DNA from: a virus
DNA length: 48,779 nt
Strand: one strand, 5' to 3'
IMG/VR virus record: IMGVR_UViG_3300027973_000006
Location: 1 to 48,779 of that record
This document shows, in pieces, positions 10,850 to 48,572 of the stretch (position 1 is its first letter; each line of letters opens with the position of its first letter). Made by a program: the position numbers and the translations under genes. Under the pieces are notes generated by a model. It was not told the DNA's origin and searched no databases. It saw nothing but the letters and a program-made list of their open reading frames with translations.

Positions 10850-11443
10850 ATGTTTAAGAATAAAGATTCGGGGAACGGAAGCCCAGAGGATAAAAAAATG
10901 GCAAAAATTTCTAAAGTTGCAGCAGTTCAAACCTGTGCTAGAAGGGCATCCTTTATTTCAAGGGAACTCACAGGTCTTGAAATCATGCCTGACGAGATGT
11001 TTGCTGCTGCCTCCGAAGCTTTGGCCAATTTGTCTGTGCTTTGGGATGATTCTGAAATAGCTAAACGCAAGCCCGATAGCTACATCAATTTTGCTGCTTG
11101 CATGGCTTGTTGCGAATGGGCTAAAGCTGTTAAAAAAACTGACAGCAATGAGCCTTACGAGCTTAATAAAAAGAAAATTTCTGATCTTCTTCAAGATGTT
11201 GCAGAAACAATAGATGGTTTGTTCCCAGGGTTAATTGAGTCTAGAGGATGTCAACAGGCTATTTATGATGGTGTAAGCGTAACTGTCAATGGAATAGAAG
11301 CTAGTGGTTGGAGATGGACTCAAAAGTTAAATGAAAGAATCGTCATACTTATGAGTTTGTATCCTATACTGAAATTCCAATCCGCAAATAGTTCTAAACT
11401 TTTGGAAATTGCAGAAGAGTTAGTTAGAAAGGAAGGTAAATAA
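10850..11443 (+). CDS. Early protein of unknown function
   Basis: A 197-residue, mostly helical protein. A polar N-terminal 16 residues precede an internal MAKISKV that is a possible alternative start, but AAGGGG is correctly spaced for the ATG at 10850. Several cysteines occur in the middle (CMACCEWAK), and the C-terminal part has a tryptophan-rich segment (ASGWRWTQK). It lies between the resolvase and another unknown gene with gaps of 14 and 1 bases, so it is an operon member. No family recognised. Confidence 0.65.
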   Translation: MFKNKDSGNGSPEDKKMAKISKVAAVQTCARRASFISRELTGLEIMPDEMFAAASEALANLSVLWDDSEIAKRKPDSYINFAACMACCEWAKAVKKTDSNEPYELNKKKISDLLQDVAETIDGLFPGLIESRGCQQAIYDGVSVTVNGIEASGWRWTQKLNERIVILMSLYPILKFQSANSSKLLEIAEELVRKEGK

Positions 11444-11444
11444 T

Positions 11445-11882
11445 ATGCCAGTATACATTAACGATGAGTTGTATTTGACTAGCCCTGAGGCCCAGTTGGT
11501 TATGGGGGTAAAGGCAGGGCTAATCGCTCATTATTTTTACCGAAACGAATTTCGTGGGGTAATAGATATGAGTGATCAGAAGCCTTTGATGGATGCGATC
11601 AGGTTAGTTGGGATTGAAATCGACCCAGTCGAACTAGAGAAGTTTAACAAGAAAAGTAAGTCTCATTTTTTGGTTCCAATGTCATCTGTATTAGCTAAGA
11701 TGATGAGGCGGGAAACAAGAAAGATTACTGCTAAAGAAAAGAAAATTGCTTTAGCTTTAAAGAGAGAAGAGAAAGCTAAAGAAAGACAGTTGATTGATGA
11801 AAAGGTTAAAGAAGCTGTCTTAGAGCAGATTAACATGAGAAGAGAAATGGAAGGTGTTTCCAATGCAGAGTCAAATGGATAA
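11445..11882 (+). CDS. Early protein with C-terminal coiled coil, unknown function
   Basis: A 145-residue protein. Residues 1-85 look globular (start MPVYINDELYLTSPEAQL); residues 90-135 are a long Lys/Glu-rich helix likely to form a coiled coil (KEKKIALALKREEKAKERQ). It starts one base after the previous stop with AGGAAGG upstream, and its 3-prime end overlaps the next gene by about 20 bases. No family recognised. Confidence 0.65.
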   Translation: MPVYINDELYLTSPEAQLVMGVKAGLIAHYFYRNEFRGVIDMSDQKPLMDAIRLVGIEIDPVELEKFNKKSKSHFLVPMSSVLAKMMRRETRKITAKEKKIALALKREEKAKERQLIDEKVKEAVLEQINMRREMEGVSNAESNG

Positions 11883-12711
11883 CAAATACTTCTTGAAAGA
11901 TCCATCTGTTATTTCTTTTAGCGGTGGTAGAACATCTGGGTTTATGTTGGCTAAAGTTCTGGAGGCACATGAAAATGTTCTTCCAGAACATATTAAAGTT
12001 GTTTTTTGCAACACAGGTTTGGAGCATCCAAAGACTTTGGATTTTGTTCAGAAGTGTTCTGAAGAATGGAAGATAGATATAGTTTGGCTGGAATATGTTG
12101 GCAAGAAGATTAAGCCAAGGTTCAAAATAACTAATCATAAAGATGCATCAAGAAATGGAGAACCCTTTAGTATTTTGATCGATGAAAGACAATACCTTCC
12201 TAATCCAGTTGCTAGATTCTGTACTGTAGAATTAAAAATAAAACTGCTGGATCGATACATGAAAGATGTTTACGGATCTTTATTCAAAAGGCATAATCAG
12301 CTTATAGGTTTGCGACACGATGAACCAAGAAGAGTAGCTAACATTAGAAAGAATTTCAGCAGAAAAAATCCAGCGTTAACTCCAATGAATGATGCTAAAC
12401 ATACTCTTCAAGATGTAATGAACTTCTGGAGCAAACAGTCTTTTGATTTGCAAATAGCACAGCATCATGGGAATTGCCAAGGTTGTTTTCTTAAGAGTAG
12501 ATACAGACTTGATCTTGTAGCAAAAGAAGATCCAGATGCTTTAAACTGGTGGATAGAGCAAGAGAAAAAGATGCTGGGTGTTGCAGAATCAAAGCAGCAT
12601 ACTTTCAGAAAAGATCGACCAAGCTATGAAAATGTAATAAAACAATCTAGAATGCAGCTTCCAATGTTTCCAGATTTTGATGACACGATTAGTTGTCATT
12701 GTACTGATTGA
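11863..12711 (+). CDS. PAPS-reductase-like PP-loop protein (phage type)
   Basis: A 282-residue member of the adenine nucleotide alpha hydrolase superfamily. The PP-loop SGGRTSG (20-26) follows a strand VISF, then VVFCNTG and later RFCTVELK, GLRHDEPRR and CQGCFLKS. Phage proteins of this type are annotated as phosphoadenosine phosphosulfate reductase-like, but the missing sulfate-assimilation partners make true PAPS reduction doubtful; ATP-dependent thiolation or nucleotide modification is possible. I chose ATG 11863, which has GGAAGG 8 bases upstream, over the GTG at 11854. The Cys pairs could bind metal or sulfur. Confidence 0.8.
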   Translation: MQSQMDNKYFLKDPSVISFSGGRTSGFMLAKVLEAHENVLPEHIKVVFCNTGLEHPKTLDFVQKCSEEWKIDIVWLEYVGKKIKPRFKITNHKDASRNGEPFSILIDERQYLPNPVARFCTVELKIKLLDRYMKDVYGSLFKRHNQLIGLRHDEPRRVANIRKNFSRKNPALTPMNDAKHTLQDVMNFWSKQSFDLQIAQHHGNCQGCFLKSRYRLDLVAKEDPDALNWWIEQEKKMLGVAESKQHTFRKDRPSYENVIKQSRMQLPMFPDFDDTISCHCTD

Positions 12712-19320: not shown

Positions 19321-19854
19321 TATAGACTTATGACGATAAAATTCTTTTTAAAATAATTATTATTTTAGTCTATTTTAGCTATTGGTATTTATTAATTACT
19401 TACATTCTATGGTATCTCACACCGTGTTATTAGTATTTTGTACTATTCCAGGTGTGATGATCAGAATGGTAGATAGTGGGGGTGATGTATGCTTGAAGAT
19501 AGATATATGTTAATATATCAATATATATATATATATTTATATATATATTATTATATAATAATATATTTATATCCAATTTAGTACATTCTCTACTACTTCT
19601 ATAATAGAATCAGGATTCTAATTTTATTATTGTATTCAATAATCTTAATGTATACTAATGTGATAGAATGATAATAATATATTGATATCCTAAACTTGTT
19701 TATCCTATTAATATTTCAACCTGGTTCCAGGCCCCCCCACCCCACCCTAAACTCAGAGACTTTTTTTTAGAACCGTCAAGTTTCATTTTGTAAAATTCAA
19801 AAGTGCATCCAAAAAATTTTTCTATTTTTCCCAAATCGTCAAAATGATTTTCTC
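19321..19854. other. AT-rich gene-free region, candidate replication origin
   Basis: No convincing gene is present. The stretch contains a 7-bp inverted repeat TCACACC/GGTGTGA (19417-19423/19451-19457), an AT-only tract with (AT)n runs at about 19505-19570, a small hairpin TAGAAT-CAGG-ATTCTA near 19604-19619, and a C-rich tract at 19732-19747. It separates divergent early and late transcription units. Easily melted AT-rich DNA at such a switch point is a common origin setting, but no iterons or initiator gene are evident. Confidence 0.45.
19720..19747 (-). repeat. G-quadruplex tract next to a hairpin
   Basis: On the leftward strand the 16 bases of 19747-19732 read GGGTGGGGTGGGGGGG, with four possible GGG tracts and one- to two-base loops, a very stable quadruplex pattern. 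It adjoins a CCTGG-TT-CCAGG hairpin (19720-19731). The surroundings are strongly AT-rich, so this block is not explained by base composition. Confidence 0.65.
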
Positions 19855-19882
19855 TTGCAATTCATATAAAACCCAATACAAT
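19855..19882 (+). promoter_or_regulatory. Late rightward promoter
   Basis: TTGCAA (19855-19860) and TACAAT (19877-19882) are separated by 16 bases, 25 bases before the first late gene at 19907. No strong terminator is seen until 25251, so it probably drives the head genes. Confidence 0.6.
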
Positions 19883-19906
19883 GTGTACATCTTAACCGGA
19901 GGTTAT

Positions 19907-20203
19907 ATGCCAGATAGTTCGATGCCGATTTCGCAAACCATTCCAGGCACAACAACGATCATTGCTAGTGGTTCGGGTCACATTCACGGATTTATGTTGC
20001 AACCGGATTGTGATTGTACTATTCAGTTTTTTAAAGCTGATGGAACAACTGAAATGACAGGAAAAATTCACATTCCGATGTATGAGCAACTTTATTGTGC
20101 TGTACAAGGGAATGGTATGTTGATAACTAATGCTGGGATAAAACTGACAGTAAATGGAAATACATCTGGAAGATTAAGTGGTTTTGTAACTTTATACAGT
20201 TAG
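19907..20203 (+). CDS. Small late protein, paralogue 1 (LQPDCDC motif)
   Basis: A 98-residue beta-rich protein (start MPDSSMPISQTIPG) with the core LQPDCDCTIQF, then GKIHIPMYEQ and a GNTSGRLSGF end. It shares this plan with the next gene, so the pair is a tandem duplication. GGAGG lies five bases before the ATG. I chose ATG 19907 over the longer frame, which would place the start upstream of the ribosome site. It is the first gene of the late operon; a small jelly-roll-like decoration or appendage protein is plausible but unproven. Confidence 0.7.
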   Translation: MPDSSMPISQTIPGTTTIIASGSGHIHGFMLQPDCDCTIQFFKADGTTEMTGKIHIPMYEQLYCAVQGNGMLITNAGIKLTVNGNTSGRLSGFVTLYS

Positions 20204-20213
20204 GTATTAAAAT

Positions 20214-20504
20214 ATGACAATTACAACAGTAGCGTATAGTGCAACAATACCATCAACTACAGCAATATTTGCTGGTGCTGGTGATTCTCATGTTTTCACA
20301 TTGCAACCAGATTGCGATTGTTACATTCAGTTTGTTCAAACTGATTTAACGCCTTTATCTGGAAAAATTCATGTAAAACAGTACGAAATATATACTGTTA
20401 GTGGTCAGGGTGACGGAATCCTTGTTTCTACTGGTGGTTTGAAAATTATCACCAGCGGAAACACCTCTGGAAGTGTAAATGGGTTCTTTACAATCAATAA
20501 TTAG
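20214..20504 (+). CDS. Small late protein, paralogue 2 (LQPDCDC motif)
   Basis: A 96-residue protein aligned end to end with the gene at 19907: LQPDCDCYIQF, SGKIHVKQYE, GQGDGILVSTGGLKI and GNTSGSVNGF match in order. The two diverge mostly in the N-terminal strand. It lies ten bases after the first copy and just ahead of the portal gene. The pair could form a hetero-oligomeric surface or neck component; no known family recognised. Confidence 0.7.
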   Translation: MTITTVAYSATIPSTTAIFAGAGDSHVFTLQPDCDCYIQFVQTDLTPLSGKIHVKQYEIYTVSGQGDGILVSTGGLKIITSGNTSGSVNGFFTINN

Positions 20505-22417: not shown

Positions 22418-23497
22418 ATGAATGCCGTCATTGAAAATAAACCAGGTGTAGTTGACCGAAACAAGTCCATTGTTTACGGTGTAAAAGTGCTTGGATTTAG
22501 CTCAATGAATGGCAGAATCTACGATCCAAAAGCGATTCGTGATGCAGTTCCGCTTTACGAAAACGCTCCAGTAAATAAAGACCACAAAACCGAAGCACCT
22601 TTGTTTTCTGACAGGCTAGGATGGCTTCAAAATGTCCGTTTTACCTCAGAAGGTTTATATGCGGACTTCAGATATAACCCCCATGCTGATGGGATTGATT
22701 CGTTTTTGTGGTTCGCAGAAAATAATGGCCTCGGTGATGTAGGCTTTAGCCATCTTGTTAGTGGCAAATCAATTCCAGATCAAGATGGTACAGAAAGAGT
22801 TGTCAGAATTGACAGAGTTAGATCGGTGGATCTAGTTGCAAACCCTGCAACTACCACCACCATTTTTGAATCCAAGGAGACTGCAATGAAAAATGACAAA
22901 ATGATGACTGAAGAAAATCCTGTAAAGGAAATGTATAAGGAAGAGGTTCCAGATGCTGCACCCGCACAAGAGCCAACTGCTGCACCGGCTTCGGAAGAAC
23001 CGTCTTCTGATATGCTCAAGAAAATTATGGAAATTTGCGTTGGCCCAGGTGAAGGTTCGGCAAAAGGTCAGATGATTCTTGACCTTATTGCCAATGCAAC
23101 TGGCCTCGGTGGCGTGACTGCTGAAACCTCAGATGTAACAGGAAATCCTACTTCTGGAACACCAGCACAAGCTTCTAATAGTGACGATGATTCTGGCGAA
23201 GAAGAAATGGATGACGAAAAAAAGGAATCCATTAACGAGCTTCTAGAGCTTCGCAAATGGAAGGCCGAAAAACTCAATGAAGAAAAAATATTCTCCCTGC
23301 TTAAGGAGAATAAACTAGAAGCAACCCCTGTGTTTGTAAAGCAACTTTCCGCTATCGGTGAAACGATGTGGGCAGAAGCGATTGAAGACAGAAAAAAGGT
23401 TGCTCTTGTCAGAGCTAGTGTTAAGCCAGTTAGTTCGACTGCAATCCAAGGCGAGTCGAATTATCAACAGTTCCGTGAAAATGTCCTTGGCAAATAG
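22418..23497 (+). CDS. Prohead maturation protease fused to scaffold region
   Basis: Residues 15-150 match the HK97/S78-type prohead protease: a conserved His56 (NKDHK), the nucleophile region VGFSHLV with Ser111, and the end SVDLVANPATTTTIF. Residues 150-280 are acidic, Pro/Ala-rich and disordered, and the rest is helical, as in scaffold domains. It would self-assemble inside the prohead, cleave the capsid proteins and itself, and leave room for DNA. No ribosome site precedes the ATG; the upstream promoter may give a leaderless transcript. Upstream in-frame codons hit a stop, so the start cannot move upstream. Confidence 0.88.
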   Translation: MNAVIENKPGVVDRNKSIVYGVKVLGFSSMNGRIYDPKAIRDAVPLYENAPVNKDHKTEAPLFSDRLGWLQNVRFTSEGLYADFRYNPHADGIDSFLWFAENNGLGDVGFSHLVSGKSIPDQDGTERVVRIDRVRSVDLVANPATTTTIFESKETAMKNDKMMTEENPVKEMYKEEVPDAAPAQEPTAAPASEEPSSDMLKKIMEICVGPGEGSAKGQMILDLIANATGLGGVTAETSDVTGNPTSGTPAQASNSDDDSGEEEMDDEKKESINELLELRKWKAEKLNEEKIFSLLKENKLEATPVFVKQLSAIGETMWAEAIEDRKKVALVRASVKPVSSTAIQGESNYQQFRENVLGK

Positions 23498-31134: not shown

Positions 31135-32409
31135 ATGCCAATTATACCAGTAGGAAATGAAACTCTTTGGGATCAGGGAAAATTAGCAGAAAGAATTCAA
31201 GGTTCTGCCCCTGGGTCTACATCTATATCCTTAGAAGGTGATTCTAGGGCAACAATGGTTTATATTGTTGAGGGGCCAAAAGATGGAAAAGATCAAAGGA
31301 ATCCAATGGTTCTTTTTTGCCAAGATGTGTTGGGCAATGTGAGCGTTAACGCTACAAATGGTGCGTTAAAAAGAAAATCTCCAATGGTGCATCCTCAGTT
31401 TAGATGGATGTATGCCGAAAGAATAACTAGCATAAAGGGTTTAGGTTTTGCAAGAGAATCTAGTGACGATCCATCATCACCACTTTTAAGATGGAATACT
31501 GCTGGTGGAACTTCATGGCAAACAATTCAGCCATATTATTTGATATACGACAAATATGAAGTTACAGTTGAGTTTTCATCAAGACCTTATCTTACTACTG
31601 ATGATGCAACAATGGACAGGCTCAACGCTGCTTATGCAAATGCTTATACAATATCTGGTGCATATGCAATATATTACAACGACAAAGGGGAACAAAAAAC
31701 TGTTTCTGGAGATCCTTATCGTGAATATGCAAGGTATATCACATACACAACAGAAACTTCCGCTGAATTTTTAACCATGAAGGGTGGTTCATTCAAATTT
31801 GTATCTGATGTTGATCAGATTGATTCCCAGTCTATTGCTGGATTTTATGGAAAAACACTTATTCCAAAAGTTGTTTTAAAGATGACTTGGAATATAGTTC
31901 CATATTCTTTTATTGATCCGAGTGAAGATGCATCTACAAACATATTTCAAGCACTTGGAAGAGTTAACCAGAATTGGTTTTTTGGTTATGGGCCTGGCGA
32001 GCTTCTTTTTACTGGCTTCACAAACACCCAAAAAATGAAGAATCAGTTTGATGTCTTTGCCTACAGCTTAGACCAAGTTGCTGATCTTCCTAGAATCAAC
32101 GATATCTTGTACACAGATATTACTTTTAGTTTTCTTTACATTCCGATCTATTCTTATTCAAAAACAGGAACTATTTACCCATCAAGCCCCAAGGGTATAA
32201 TTAATCCAGACAATTTGAGTTATGTCAATGCTGGCCACAATTTAGCCCAAACTCAAGTTAACAAGCAATATTATCCTGTTGTTTCACAAGATGTAGAAAG
32301 TCCTGCCCCTTCACCAGCTAGAAAGAAAAGGCCAATATACGGAAGTTATCCTTTTGAATTGATGTTTAATGCAAAACCGTATAGAATGGCACTTGAATCG
32401 CAAGAATAA
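31135..32409 (+). CDS. Tail protein, distal-tail region
   Basis: A 424-residue aromatic, beta-rich protein with no transmembrane part (start MPIIPVGNETLWDQGK). It follows the tape measure by 14 bases, the usual place for distal tail or baseplate-hub proteins, and has a Pro-rich linker (SPAPSPARKKRP) near its end. I do not recognise a fold with certainty. AAGGA precedes the ATG. Confidence 0.65.
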   Translation: MPIIPVGNETLWDQGKLAERIQGSAPGSTSISLEGDSRATMVYIVEGPKDGKDQRNPMVLFCQDVLGNVSVNATNGALKRKSPMVHPQFRWMYAERITSIKGLGFARESSDDPSSPLLRWNTAGGTSWQTIQPYYLIYDKYEVTVEFSSRPYLTTDDATMDRLNAAYANAYTISGAYAIYYNDKGEQKTVSGDPYREYARYITYTTETSAEFLTMKGGSFKFVSDVDQIDSQSIAGFYGKTLIPKVVLKMTWNIVPYSFIDPSEDASTNIFQALGRVNQNWFFGYGPGELLFTGFTNTQKMKNQFDVFAYSLDQVADLPRINDILYTDITFSFLYIPIYSYSKTGTIYPSSPKGIINPDNLSYVNAGHNLAQTQVNKQYYPVVSQDVESPAPSPARKKRPIYGSYPFELMFNAKPYRMALESQE

Positions 32410-39345: not shown

Positions 39346-39618
39346 ATGATATTCGCAGACATCAATATCATAGACATTATCGAGCGATTCGGAGTGTCTT
39401 TAAGTTTTCTTGTTTTCCTTTTATGGGCAGTTTACAAGGGGTTTAGTTGGCTAGGTCAAAACATTCTACTTCCCCTGCACCAGAGACATATGGTATTTAT
39501 AGATAGGTTAGAAAGCTCGATTGGCGAAGTAGCCAGGGCTCAAGCGGAAAGCTTGAGGATTTTGACAGAGGTTTTAAATTACACTAGGACTTTAAAAAAG
39601 GAAGTGAAGCATGATTAG
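39346..39618 (+). CDS. Holin-like or membrane-anchored protein
   Basis: A 90-residue protein with one transmembrane helix (about residues 15-32, SLSFLVFLLWAVYKGF) and a C-terminal helical, charged part. This layout is that of small holins or spanin-like membrane proteins. GGAG precedes the ATG and the stop overlaps the next gene. It begins the lysis-like cluster (39346-42058); assignment is by topology and position. Confidence 0.55.
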   Translation: MIFADINIIDIIERFGVSLSFLVFLLWAVYKGFSWLGQNILLPLHQRHMVFIDRLESSIGEVARAQAESLRILTEVLNYTRTLKKEVKHD

Positions 39619-39928
39619 TTTTCCTCAGACGATGCCTACAGATGCCATGATGCTTGTTGTTGACAGGCTTCGTGGAAAGAAAGATGTAGGTAATAAAGAA
39701 TTTTGTAATGCACTTTGGAACATTGTTGGCTACGCTGCTGACCAAGTTGTTCCTGACGATAAGCTTATATTTCAGCAATCAGAAGTCTCTCTTGAAGACT
39801 TTGCTGCAATTCTTGAGCAAGCAATTCCCCAGGGTGATTTCCACGGAAATCCGATTACAATTGGAATCATCCCTTGGGCAATCGTTCTTAAGACCGCTCT
39901 AAAGTTATTGATCTCTGTTTTTTTATAA
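39611..39928 (+). CDS. Lysis-cluster protein, unknown function
   Basis: A 105-residue protein: a helical first half (LVVDRLRGKKDV) and a hydrophobic C-terminal stretch (IPWAIVLKTALKLLISVF) that could be a membrane segment. It overlaps the preceding gene by 8 bases with AAGGAAG upstream. The last codons lie on a T7 run (39918-39924), beyond which an HNH domain is open in another frame. Role unknown. Confidence 0.6.
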   Translation: MISFPQTMPTDAMMLVVDRLRGKKDVGNKEFCNALWNIVGYAADQVVPDDKLIFQQSEVSLEDFAAILEQAIPQGDFHGNPITIGIIPWAIVLKTALKLLISVFL

Positions 39929-40202
39929 TCGGGGGTCACAATGGGCCAAGGTAAGAGCAGCACATCTAGAACGGAATCCTAAGTGTGCTGCTTGCCTTGA
40001 GGATGATCCCAATTTGCTTCAAGTCCACCATCTGATACCATTTTGTAAAGATGCATCTTTAGAAATGGAGCCAAAAAATTTACTGTCGCTATGCAGACCT
40101 TGTCATTTTCTTTTTGGTCACGCAAAAAAATGGTCATCAGTAAATGTGTACTGTTTGATAGATTCTAAAAACATGGCAGAACGAATAAGGAGCAGACCGT
40201 GA
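39915..40202 (+). CDS. HNH endonuclease, uncertain start (possible frameshift)
   Basis: From W10 onward the open frame holds a clear HNH domain: RNPKCAAC (first zinc pair), VHHLIPF (catalytic HH), NLLSLCRPCH (second zinc pair and HNH His) and HAKKW. The frame has no ATG, GTG or TTG before the domain; only CTG 39915 is available. A good ATG with GGGG upstream (39941) is in the next frame and stops after 13 codons. Either an unusual start, a frameshift from the preceding gene at the T7 run, or a sequencing error explains this. HNH proteins next to terminases aid packaging; this one is far from terL. Confidence 0.65.
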   Translation: MFFYNRGSQWAKVRAAHLERNPKCAACLEDDPNLLQVHHLIPFCKDASLEMEPKNLLSLCRPCHFLFGHAKKWSSVNVYCLIDSKNMAERIRSRP

Positions 40203-40825
40203 TAAACTTTCTTTTTTTAGTGTTTCTTCAAATACCAACGATAGAGCTACCCGCAAAGGTTTCTGGTCAACCTGGAGCTTTTATAAGCGTTCCAGCCAAG
40301 ACTGAATCTAAAGCAGTCAAATGGGTTTCAATTGATAAAGGCCTAAACATTTTCCCTGTGGATTTGCTAAAGGACTCCAAAACCCTGGTAGTTACTTCTC
40401 AGATCCAAGGTGTGTACAGATTGTTTGCTTATGTGGGTGATGGGTTTGGGCCATCTGATCCAGCGTTTACATCTGTAGTAATTGGTGATGAACCCGCACC
40501 CGCTCCACCAGTAAATCCCGATAGCGATATTAAAGCAGCAGCAGCAAAAGAGGACAAAGAGCAAGTCAAGTGGTTGTCTATGTTCTACGATGAACTTGCA
40601 AAAGAATGTCAGAAAAACGACTACGAATTTCTTACAGATGTTTTCAAGGCAGCAAAGGCAACCATAAATAAACAATTTATGGAAAACGAACTTGCTAATC
40701 TCAGGGATGTAATTGGAAAGAGATTGAATCAAAGACTTCCAAAGGATGGAACGCTTAAACTTGACCAAAAACTAAGGGATCTTCTTACTAACGAATTTAC
40801 TCAGATAGCAAAGGAATTAAAATAA
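40199..40825 (+). CDS. Exported protein of the lysis-like cluster, unknown function
   Basis: A 208-residue protein. The GTG start is fixed by AAGGAG 7 bases upstream and by a four-base overlap with the HNH stop. The N-terminus MINFLFLVFLQIPTI looks like a signal peptide, residues 15-95 are a beta-rich domain (VSIDKGLNIFPVDLL), a Pro-rich linker (PAPAPPVNP) follows, and the C-terminal half is helical. It resembles small exported proteins I have seen in planctomycete genomes and phages, but the name and function are unknown. Confidence 0.7.
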   Translation: MINFLFLVFLQIPTIELPAKVSGQPGAFISVPAKTESKAVKWVSIDKGLNIFPVDLLKDSKTLVVTSQIQGVYRLFAYVGDGFGPSDPAFTSVVIGDEPAPAPPVNPDSDIKAAAAKEDKEQVKWLSMFYDELAKECQKNDYEFLTDVFKAAKATINKQFMENELANLRDVIGKRLNQRLPKDGTLKLDQKLRDLLTNEFTQIAKELK

Positions 40826-41805
40826 TGTCTATGGAAAACCAGCCAAAATTTGGCGAAAGAAATAAAGCAAAAGAACCACCAATTGAACCCAATAAATTTG
40901 GCTGGATTCCAATTGAATCGCAACCTCAAGAACTTCAAGATAAGTTTAACGCAAAGTTAATTCCTTTTCAAATCGCTGGCCCTCCATTGGATTTAAAAGA
41001 ATCACTTCTTTACAAGGTGGTTAACCAAGCTGCTGGTTACGAATTTTTTCCTTGGAATCAGAAAACTGGTTCATGCGTAGGTCACGGTGCTTTAGCGGTA
41101 ATGGCTACACTACAAGCGGTTGAAATAATATCTCAACGGCAAACATTTGAAGAATGGAGAATTCCATTCATTCTTTATAATTATGGTCAATCTCGTAAGC
41201 GTGGTGGATTGCATGGAACAGGAGATGGTTCTTTTGGTAGTTCAATGGCTGAATCTCTTCATGAAGACGGTTGCCCTCCGATTGATGAAAACTGCCCGCA
41301 ACCAATCAAAGAACAAGACGGATCATGGACTTTTGGTGCATCAGCAGAAACTGCTTGGTCGAATGGGGATAAGCCTCCTGTTGACCTTTCTAAATCGGCT
41401 AACAAATTTAAAGTTCAAAGCACTTCAAAATTAAAAAATAGTGATGAGGTTAAACAGGCTTTATCGCATGGATACCCTGTGACTATTGCTTCTGGTTGGT
41501 GGGGTTTTAGCGATATTAAAATAAAACCGTCTGGAACCCCTGCTGTCCAATTAGCTTCAAGAAATCAATCATGGGGGCATCAGCAATCGTGTTTAGGATT
41601 CACCACCCATCCAGATTTCGGTTTGATATTTTTAATTCAAAATTCATGGGGTAATGCTCATGGAACCCCGCTAGGCAATTTCGGTGAACCCAAAGGTTCC
41701 TACTGGATTAAAGCCAAAGATATGGATAGAATCTGTTTAGAGGAAGTCTTTTCTTTCTCTAATTTTGATGGATACCCTGCACGAACTATCGAGTGGTCGA
41801 TATAA
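40825..41805 (+). CDS. Papain-like (C1A-type) cysteine protease
   Basis: A 326-residue protein with the C1 peptidase catalytic set in order: NQKTGSCVGHG with Gln79 and Cys84, WGHQQSCLGF with His252, and IQNSWGN with Asn273, the usual N-S-W-G. No signal peptide is seen, so it may act after lysis opening or as a structural protein in the particle. In a region without a recognisable peptidoglycan hydrolase, it is the best enzymatic candidate for lysis or entry, perhaps attacking protein-rich host envelopes; this is inference. Start overlaps the previous stop (TAATG). Confidence 0.82.
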   Translation: MSMENQPKFGERNKAKEPPIEPNKFGWIPIESQPQELQDKFNAKLIPFQIAGPPLDLKESLLYKVVNQAAGYEFFPWNQKTGSCVGHGALAVMATLQAVEIISQRQTFEEWRIPFILYNYGQSRKRGGLHGTGDGSFGSSMAESLHEDGCPPIDENCPQPIKEQDGSWTFGASAETAWSNGDKPPVDLSKSANKFKVQSTSKLKNSDEVKQALSHGYPVTIASGWWGFSDIKIKPSGTPAVQLASRNQSWGHQQSCLGFTTHPDFGLIFLIQNSWGNAHGTPLGNFGEPKGSYWIKAKDMDRICLEEVFSFSNFDGYPARTIEWSI

Positions 41806-41842
41806 TGTGCTTGGGTACTTTTTTTCTTTAGGAGGAAGCAAT

Positions 41843-42058
41843 ATGTTTAGTTTAGTGTTGACGGTAGCTATGGTGATCGATTTACCAATCCGCAAGGGTT
41901 CTTCATGTTCTAATGGGCAATGCTCTGCTCCAGTAGTGCAAGTTGAAAAGAAGGTCGAAAAAACCATTAAGATTGAAACGGTTAAAGAAGACACGAAAGT
42001 TTTCCGTGGTGGAAAGCTTCGATTTAGCCTTCGTGGTTCTAGTTGCTGTGGCAGATAG
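41843..42058 (+). CDS. Small secreted cysteine-containing protein
   Basis: A 71-residue protein with a hydrophobic start (MFSLVLTVAMVID) that could be a signal peptide or anchor, two Cys-pairs (SCSNGQC and SCCG) and a Lys/Val-rich middle (VEKKVEKTIKIETV). ATG 41843 is chosen because AGGAGGAAG precedes it; the longer frame begins inside the protease gene. It may be a lysis accessory or a particle surface protein. No family recognised. Confidence 0.6.
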   Translation: MFSLVLTVAMVIDLPIRKGSSCSNGQCSAPVVQVEKKVEKTIKIETVKEDTKVFRGGKLRFSLRGSSCCGR

Positions 42059-42070
42059 AAAGGAAGTTTT

Positions 42071-42349
42071 ATGAATCCTCAAATGTCTATACCTCCAAAT
42101 ATGATTGGTGGTCAACCTGGAATGAATCCAGTTCATCCTTCACTCGATATCTTTTCAAGATTTATTAAAGGTGAAGTTACTAGAGATCAGGCAGTTGATG
42201 CTTTTTCAGACTATATTATGACTGGAATCAGAGGAATCCCTGTTCCAACACATGAACTTGCAAAATCAGTTTTATCGTCTGAATCCAGCAACTTTATGCA
42301 GTATCCACAAATTATTCAATGCATGGCTTTATTGATTAAAACACCTTGA
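42071..42349 (+). CDS. Small late protein, unknown function
   Basis: A 92-residue protein with a Met/Pro/Gly-rich N-terminal 25 residues (MNPQMSIPPNMIGGQPGMNP) and a helical rest (FSRFIKGEVTRDQAVDAF). GGAAG precedes the ATG. It is followed by a strong terminator, closing this transcription segment. No motif recognised. Confidence 0.6.
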   Translation: MNPQMSIPPNMIGGQPGMNPVHPSLDIFSRFIKGEVTRDQAVDAFSDYIMTGIRGIPVPTHELAKSVLSSESSNFMQYPQIIQCMALLIKTP

Positions 42350-42376
42350 TTAAAAAGCAAATGTGTATGATAATTG

Positions 42377-42410
42377 CAGGACACAATTAAAACTGTGTCC
42401 TGTTTTTTTT
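42377..42410 (+). terminator. Intrinsic terminator before the adhesin-like genes
   Basis: CAGGACACA (42377-42385) pairs perfectly with TGTGTCCTG (42394-42402) around eight bases, followed by T8. The stem is the most perfect in the window. Confidence 0.9.
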
Positions 42411-48056: not shown

Positions 48057-48572
48057 TTATAATCTCCATTTGTTTTTCTTGGCAATTCTTGCTGAAGCCC
48101 TGCCTCTGTCTCTTATGTTCTTAGGTATAGCCGTGTACATCGTTCCTCGAACCTTCCTGTTTCTTACCGCTACAATACCAAGTCTACCTGACCCGCCTCT
48201 TCTAAATGGTCGAGCTTTCCTAGCAATGATTGAATAGTCTTTTAATGATGGTGATGCATACCAGTATATAAACCCTCCACGGAAGTTATTTGCCACCCAT
48301 TTATTAAAAGTGGCCTTACCTACCCTTGGATATATATAACCTATATTTGGGCCTCTGGCCCTCATTACAACTGAACCTGATTGAGCCTTTGCCATAGGAA
48401 AGTATTCTAGTGATTTCATCCAAGCAGAAGGCGGGGTGTATATGACAGAGTTATTGGTTGTGGTAATGTCTGGGTTAGGTGCTGGATTAGTATTCGTAGC
48501 TCTCCCCACCCGCTTTGCTCGGTCTTCTAAAAGTTTCTTCAGTTTTTCTATAGCACCTACTAAATCTGCCAT
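48057..48572 (-). CDS. Leftward basic protein near terminase, unknown function
   Basis: A 171-residue protein with an N-terminal helix (MADLVGAIEKLKKLLEDRAKRV), a Pro/Asn linker, a middle GYIYPRVGKATFNKW segment reminiscent of the KTSC pattern but not certain, and a very basic C-terminus (RRGGSGRLGIVAVRNRKVRG) likely to bind nucleic acid. AAGGGG precedes the ATG, so it starts close to the divergent terminase promoter. It could be a packaging or DNA-condensing protein; inference only. Confidence 0.65.
   Translation of the reverse strand: MADLVGAIEKLKKLLEDRAKRVGRATNTNPAPNPDITTTNNSVIYTPPSAWMKSLEYFPMAKAQSGSVVMRARGPNIGYIYPRVGKATFNKWVANNFRGGFIYWYASPSLKDYSIIARKARPFRRGGSGRLGIVAVRNRKVRGTMYTAIPKNIRDRGRASARIAKKNKWRL

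Follow-up and report, generated by a model that had tools for sequence, protein, structure and literature searches.

How a tailed phage breaches the envelope of its host when no endolysin can be recognized among its genes is the question raised by positions 39346 to 42058 of a 48,779-nucleotide stretch of DNA (here called the window). The window, a virus record of IMG/VR, carries genes for terminase, portal, capsid, tape measure, and tail collar, which mark it as a tailed phage; it belongs to a group of uncultured phages, apparently from fresh water. An earlier inspection of the letters by themselves (the sequence-only reading) had proposed a lysis-like cluster with a papain-like protease for this region. 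All the parts that it listed were present, together with a 105-aa gene, an HNH gene, and a terminator at 42376 to 42403 that it had not listed.

Layout and conservation of the cassette

The cassette comes after a 1724-aa collar/fibre gene, at a place where phages commonly carry their host-lysis genes. Its genes overlap or almost abut, and most of them are preceded by Shine-Dalgarno boxes. The features are as follows.

39346..39618, plus strand: TM90, a 90-aa membrane protein with one helix and a charged tail that is probably coiled, resembling a holin in topology alone
39611..39928, plus strand: g105, 105 aa, with a hydrophobic C terminus and a T7 run (39918-39924) ahead of the stop
39912..40202, plus strand: HNH endonuclease domain (Pfam and PHROGs), about 93 to 95 aa past the T run and shifted +1/-2 against the g105 frame
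40199..40825, plus strand: pro208, 208 aa, with a hydrophobic N terminus, an Ig-like domain, a Pro linker, and a helical C-terminal domain
40825..41805, plus strand: predicted C1A (papain family, xylellain-type) cysteine peptidase, 326 aa, with C84, H252, and N273
41843..42058, plus strand: cys71, 71 aa, hydrophobic at its start and carrying Cys clusters
42071..42349, plus strand: g92, the last cassette gene, optional and missing from some relatives
42376..42403, plus strand: intrinsic terminator, a 10-bp stem followed by TTTTTTT, which closes the cassette

In TM90, a single hydrophobic helix (best 19-residue hydropathy, 1.92) precedes the charged tail. No match was obtained to the holin families of Pfam and PHROGs, so that the one-helix topology of the proposed holin-like protein stood and a family assignment did not. 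For its part, pro208 gave an AlphaFold2 model with a mean pLDDT of 79, whose beta part resembled Ig-like domains; its Foldseek matches were Ig-like and included lambda gpV and Hoc-like proteins, and searches for pro208 in phages and plasmids found nothing. The hydrophobic N terminus and the Pro linker agree with the exported protein that had been described, and we infer export from them. The small Cys protein described as secreted was also found, with its hydrophobic start and Cys clusters, but in a shorter form: the start at TTG 41765 (97 aa) was rejected because this TTG is not conserved, in favour of ATG 41843 (71 aa), which has an AGGAGG box upstream and a conserved M. In the window the terminator stands between the cassette and the fibre gene that follows; most relatives also have a terminator hairpin at this place, and its sequence occurs in several variants.

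Scans of viral contigs yielded about 40 contigs with relatives of the cassette. TM90, g105, pro208, and the protease gene were all present in the same order in 33 further contigs, the remainder being cut by contig ends, so that the small membrane protein shares the cassette with the protease gene in each of these 33; TM90 was conserved in 37 other contigs. Among terminase-matched contigs, the cassette was present in every one that reaches its position (26/26), and the 11 that lack it begin under 5.4 kb upstream of the terminase gene and so do not extend to the place. Carriage of the cassette is obligate in this phage group, and no swap for an endolysin was observed in those 26 contigs. The fibre genes on either side vary between contigs while the cassette is constant. 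Compared with the window, TM90, g105, pro208, and the protease showed median pN/pS values of 0.10 to 0.20; the cassette is under purifying selection, and these values, together with the gene order kept in the 33 other contigs, argue against a chance arrangement.

The protease was 69 to 95% identical to that of the window across the relatives, and two alignment scans for more divergent ones levelled off at about 69 to 72% identity. In five loci (L030, L031, L033, L035, and L038), pro208 was 92 to 94% identical to its window counterpart and the protease only about 69 to 72%, a gap that points to recombination inside the cassette, the protease allele having seemingly been swapped.

The HNH frame of the window opens inside the last g105 codons, at GTTTTTTTATAA, and shows no ATG, GTG, or TTG until codon 35, a TTG within the HNH core. 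Since it has no start of its own before its core and lies in another frame than g105, HNH is probably made as a frameshift fusion with g105; the simplest reading is that ribosomal frameshifting or transcriptional slippage produces this g105-HNH fusion. The run of six to seven T residues (T6-T7) at the junction had the same arrangement in all HNH-bearing relatives examined (loci L001 to L086), and the encoded junctions were alike despite the differing shift, with FFYNRGS or FFCNRGS for +1/-2 and FFIGRGW for -1. Read in the HNH frame, the stretch around the junction evolves like coding sequence, with a pN/pS of 0.35, compared with 0.83 and 2.49 in the other frames. In five contigs devoid of HNH the run was interrupted (TTTTCTT), which may represent a single event. 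Such T6 runs close to a gene end are otherwise rare, with 35 among 653 ORFs, most of these probably being g105 itself.

Assignment of the protease to family C1A

The protease matched no Pfam or PHROG family. It did not reach the gathering score of PF00112, against which its best relative scored 13.7 bits (cut-off, 20.7), and the motif call of a complete C1A triad therefore needed a separate test. A profile of 31 phage relatives was compared by hhalign with a profile of 17 bacterial proteins found with PF00112, which resulted in a probability of 97.1% and an E value of 7e-11. In the alignment, the catalytic Cys, His, and Asn of papain coincide with C84, H252, and N273 of the window protease; the latter lie in GSC, WGH, and NSWG, respectively, and were invariant across all aligned relatives, which upholds the triad as it had been called.

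The bacterial-protein profile scored the window protease at 34.9 bits, compared with at most 4.4 bits for 1000 shuffled copies and at most 1.6 bits for every other window protein. The sole PDB match by profile was 3OIS (E value, 0.0018; His-Asn half), labelled 'Cysteine protease', which we take to be xylellain, and single-sequence searches in GenBank phages and the PDB gave no match. Membership in C1A, as predicted here, is founded on the profile-profile comparison and the PDB match and not on the Pfam cut-off, a score threshold being no biological trait. Q79, invariant in the aligned relatives, stands 5 residues ahead of C84, whereas the oxyanion-hole Gln of C1A enzymes is expected 6 ahead. 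An AlphaFold2 model of the protease, built from a shallow, low-diversity alignment, had a pLDDT of 31.

With xylellain (3OIS) and the short bacterial C1A peptidases, the window protease shares the C-H-N triad, the short form, and the lack of an evident propeptide. It differs from them in being too diverged for PF00112, in carrying extra residues between the Cys and His parts, and in its lysis-like phage setting. Its N terminus is a variable tether, Pro-rich in places, in which a signal peptide is not evident.

Search for lytic enzymes in the window and in cultured phages

Scans of the window proteins against Pfam and PHROGs revealed no lysozyme, amidase, transglycosylase, or peptidoglycan peptidase family, in agreement with the earlier statement that no endolysin is recognizable, and no wall-binding domain was found in the protease. 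The families that were seen belong to replication, recombination, packaging, tail, PAPS reductase, methyltransferase, and acetyltransferase. Since family searches can miss divergent enzymes, a hidden peptidoglycan hydrolase may exist: the genes common to the whole phage group include several of no assigned function, and a divergent enzyme of this kind may lie among them, for example at 10850-11443, 31135-32409, or 48057-48572.

When GenBank phages were searched with a bacterial xylellain-type query, C1A genes were recovered. In Alicyclobacillus phage MMB025, the C1A domain is part of an annotated endolysin of 753 aa (XXN61434.1), together with an Ig-like part, an Rv2525c-type glycoside hydrolase, and PG_binding_1, and upstream of the gene lie tail fibres, a coil-TM protein resembling XhlA, a TM-coil protein, and HNH. 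The window has the C1A and Ig-like parts in common with it, likewise downstream of genes for tail fibres, for small membrane proteins, and for HNH; in MMB025, however, these form one fusion with glycoside-hydrolase-like and peptidoglycan-binding domains, whereas in the window group they are separate genes devoid of such domains. In Thermoanaerobacterium phage THSA-485A (Tsac_2838 to 2842), tail genes are followed by one coil-TM and one TM protein, an HNH gene, the GH25 endolysin (Tsac_2839), and the C1A peptidase (Tsac_2838). Tail, membrane proteins, and HNH, with C1A last, thus occur in the same order as in the window, although the window group has the Ig-like pro208 at the place of the GH25 endolysin.

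The window cassette follows the same plan as both cultured phages, with pro208 where those phages have a glycoside hydrolase, and by this comparison MMB025 and THSA-485A support a lysis role for the window C1A enzyme. Both hosts come from genera that bear S-layers, and a protease would fit such a surface. The presence of a glycoside-hydrolase lysin beside C1A in both phages nevertheless means that C1A may assist such a lysin rather than replace it.

The link does not hold for C1A genes at large. Xylellain-type C1A genes are reported from Myoviridae and Siphoviridae, with no assigned function (PMC10380794). At least 497 viral stretches encode one; they were also observed in Prevotella Lak phages and Burkholderia phage FLC9. 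Among the best 80 of the at least 497 loci (L245 to L324), the neighbours were mixed, including terminase and RNA ligase, and small membrane proteins were not enriched beside the gene in 65 IMG/VR loci (10.5% versus 8.2%; p 0.32). No general linkage between C1A and lysis was found in these IMG/VR loci, and the link is therefore specific to certain phages, not a rule.

Proposed lysis role and competing explanations

The cassette is real, conserved, and unusual, and its enzyme is most likely a lysis-module protease. Stated in full, our main reading, to which we give a probability of about 0.5, is that a tailed phage uses 39346-42058 as its lysis module, to breach the envelope, and that the enzyme of this module is the xylellain-type C1A cysteine protease. 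The cassette genes would be read late in infection as one unit ending at 42376-42403. Holin-like TM90, perhaps with g105, would permeabilise the inner membrane at a set time, and the protease, which has no evident signal peptide and would therefore depend on a membrane lesion for its release from the cytoplasm, would leave through the lesion made by TM90 and cut protein or peptide components of the envelope. Pro208, with its Ig-like domain, and cys71, both having hydrophobic starts, would be exported independently and would anchor or target the attack. Holin action, release of the protease, its substrate, and lysis without a separate peptidoglycan hydrolase are all parts that we infer.

The proteolytic lysis or entry enzyme that the sequence-only reading had envisaged is favoured by the fixed cassette, obligate in the phage group, with its holin-like protein behind a tail-fibre gene, by the absence of any other recognizable lytic enzyme, and by the C1A domain found beside or fused to an endolysin in two cultured phages; the glycoside-hydrolase lysin that accompanies C1A in both of them and the lack of a general C1A-lysis link weigh against it. 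Perhaps the protease is the only lysin of the phage group, and lysis without any peptidoglycan hydrolase is possible. The stricter version, in which peptidoglycan-cutting endolysins have been abandoned and lysis or entry proceeds solely by holin-released C1A proteolysis of a protein-based envelope layer, is doubtful. If the protease were the only lysin, it would break the working rule that bacterial double-stranded DNA phages cannot lyse their hosts without a peptidoglycan hydrolase and would hint at hosts with an envelope held by protein. MMB025 provides a domain-fusion link between C1A and lysis, and THSA-485A provides a cultured, testable system. Even an accessory role would suggest why the C1A peptidases of tailed phages (PMC10380794) appear in lysis modules.

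Two further roles for the protease are both unlikely. The flanking tail-fibre genes, the variable and partly Pro-rich tether, and the frequency on virions of Ig-like domains such as that of pro208 (lambda gpV and Hoc-like matches) would fit a virion part, located at the tail tip or injected, that serves entry, for instance by opening a protein surface layer or by cutting a host defence protein. A holin-like gene is, however, always alongside, a terminator lies between the cassette and the following fibre gene, and C1A is part of the MMB025 endolysin. Slightly less probable still is a conventional endolysin that cuts the peptide part of peptidoglycan instead of envelope proteins. Papain-fold enzymes are often peptidoglycan hydrolases, and CHAP and NlpC/P60 cut just this part; the protease holds the place of an endolysin, with no other lytic enzyme recognizable. 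Moreover, papain-like folds are common among phage lysins (PMC10318531), and the pseudomurein endoisopeptidases PeiW and PeiP (family C71) are viral endolysins of the cysteine-protease type (PMC2989375), a precedent that differs in peptidase family, in its C-H-D triad, in its archaeal pseudomurein substrate, and in its wall-binding repeats. The GSC...GH...NSWG signature and the single PDB relative, 3OIS, indicate instead the protein-cutting C1A family, and the missing wall-binding domain also speaks against this role.

An intracellular job, be it in host takeover, in maturing virion proteins such as tail fibres, or in disposing of a host factor, is quite improbable. It would accord with the lack of an evident signal peptide and with the mixed neighbours of C1A genes in other viral contigs, but a likely prohead protease is encoded separately at 22418-23497 (weak phrog_976 match; E value, 0.0013), so that prohead maturation by the C1A enzyme is unlikely; furthermore, the protease keeps 69 to 95% identity across contigs whose flanking fibre genes differ, and hence it is not bound to a single type of fibre. 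We regard as very improbable that the region is not a lysis module at all but an accessory cassette near the tail fibres, with the holin likeness of TM90 due to chance and the true lysis genes among the function-unassigned core genes. The lack of a holin family match and the number of core genes with no assigned function would allow this, whereas no hydrolase family was seen in those core genes and the cassette has parallels in two cultured phages.

A host with a protein-rich envelope is a guess. The only genome match was an 8.5-kb phage contig (CAMDNC010000148.1, locus L023) binned in a Flavipsychrobacter MAG. Shine-Dalgarno sites preceded 24 of 40 window genes (background, 7.8%) and 57 of 103 genes in the relatives, but only 2 of 39 in the MAG; this contrast argues against a Flavipsychrobacter host and makes a Bacteroidota host doubtful. 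Pro208, HNH, and cys71 may resemble planctomycete proteins. Elsewhere in the window, the PAPS reductase gene (11854-12711) had a counterpart in a single relative among the six that were compared across 42 to 52 kb, and the genes at 19844-20203 and 20214-20504 are adjacent small paralogues, for which several relatives have one gene that best matches both.
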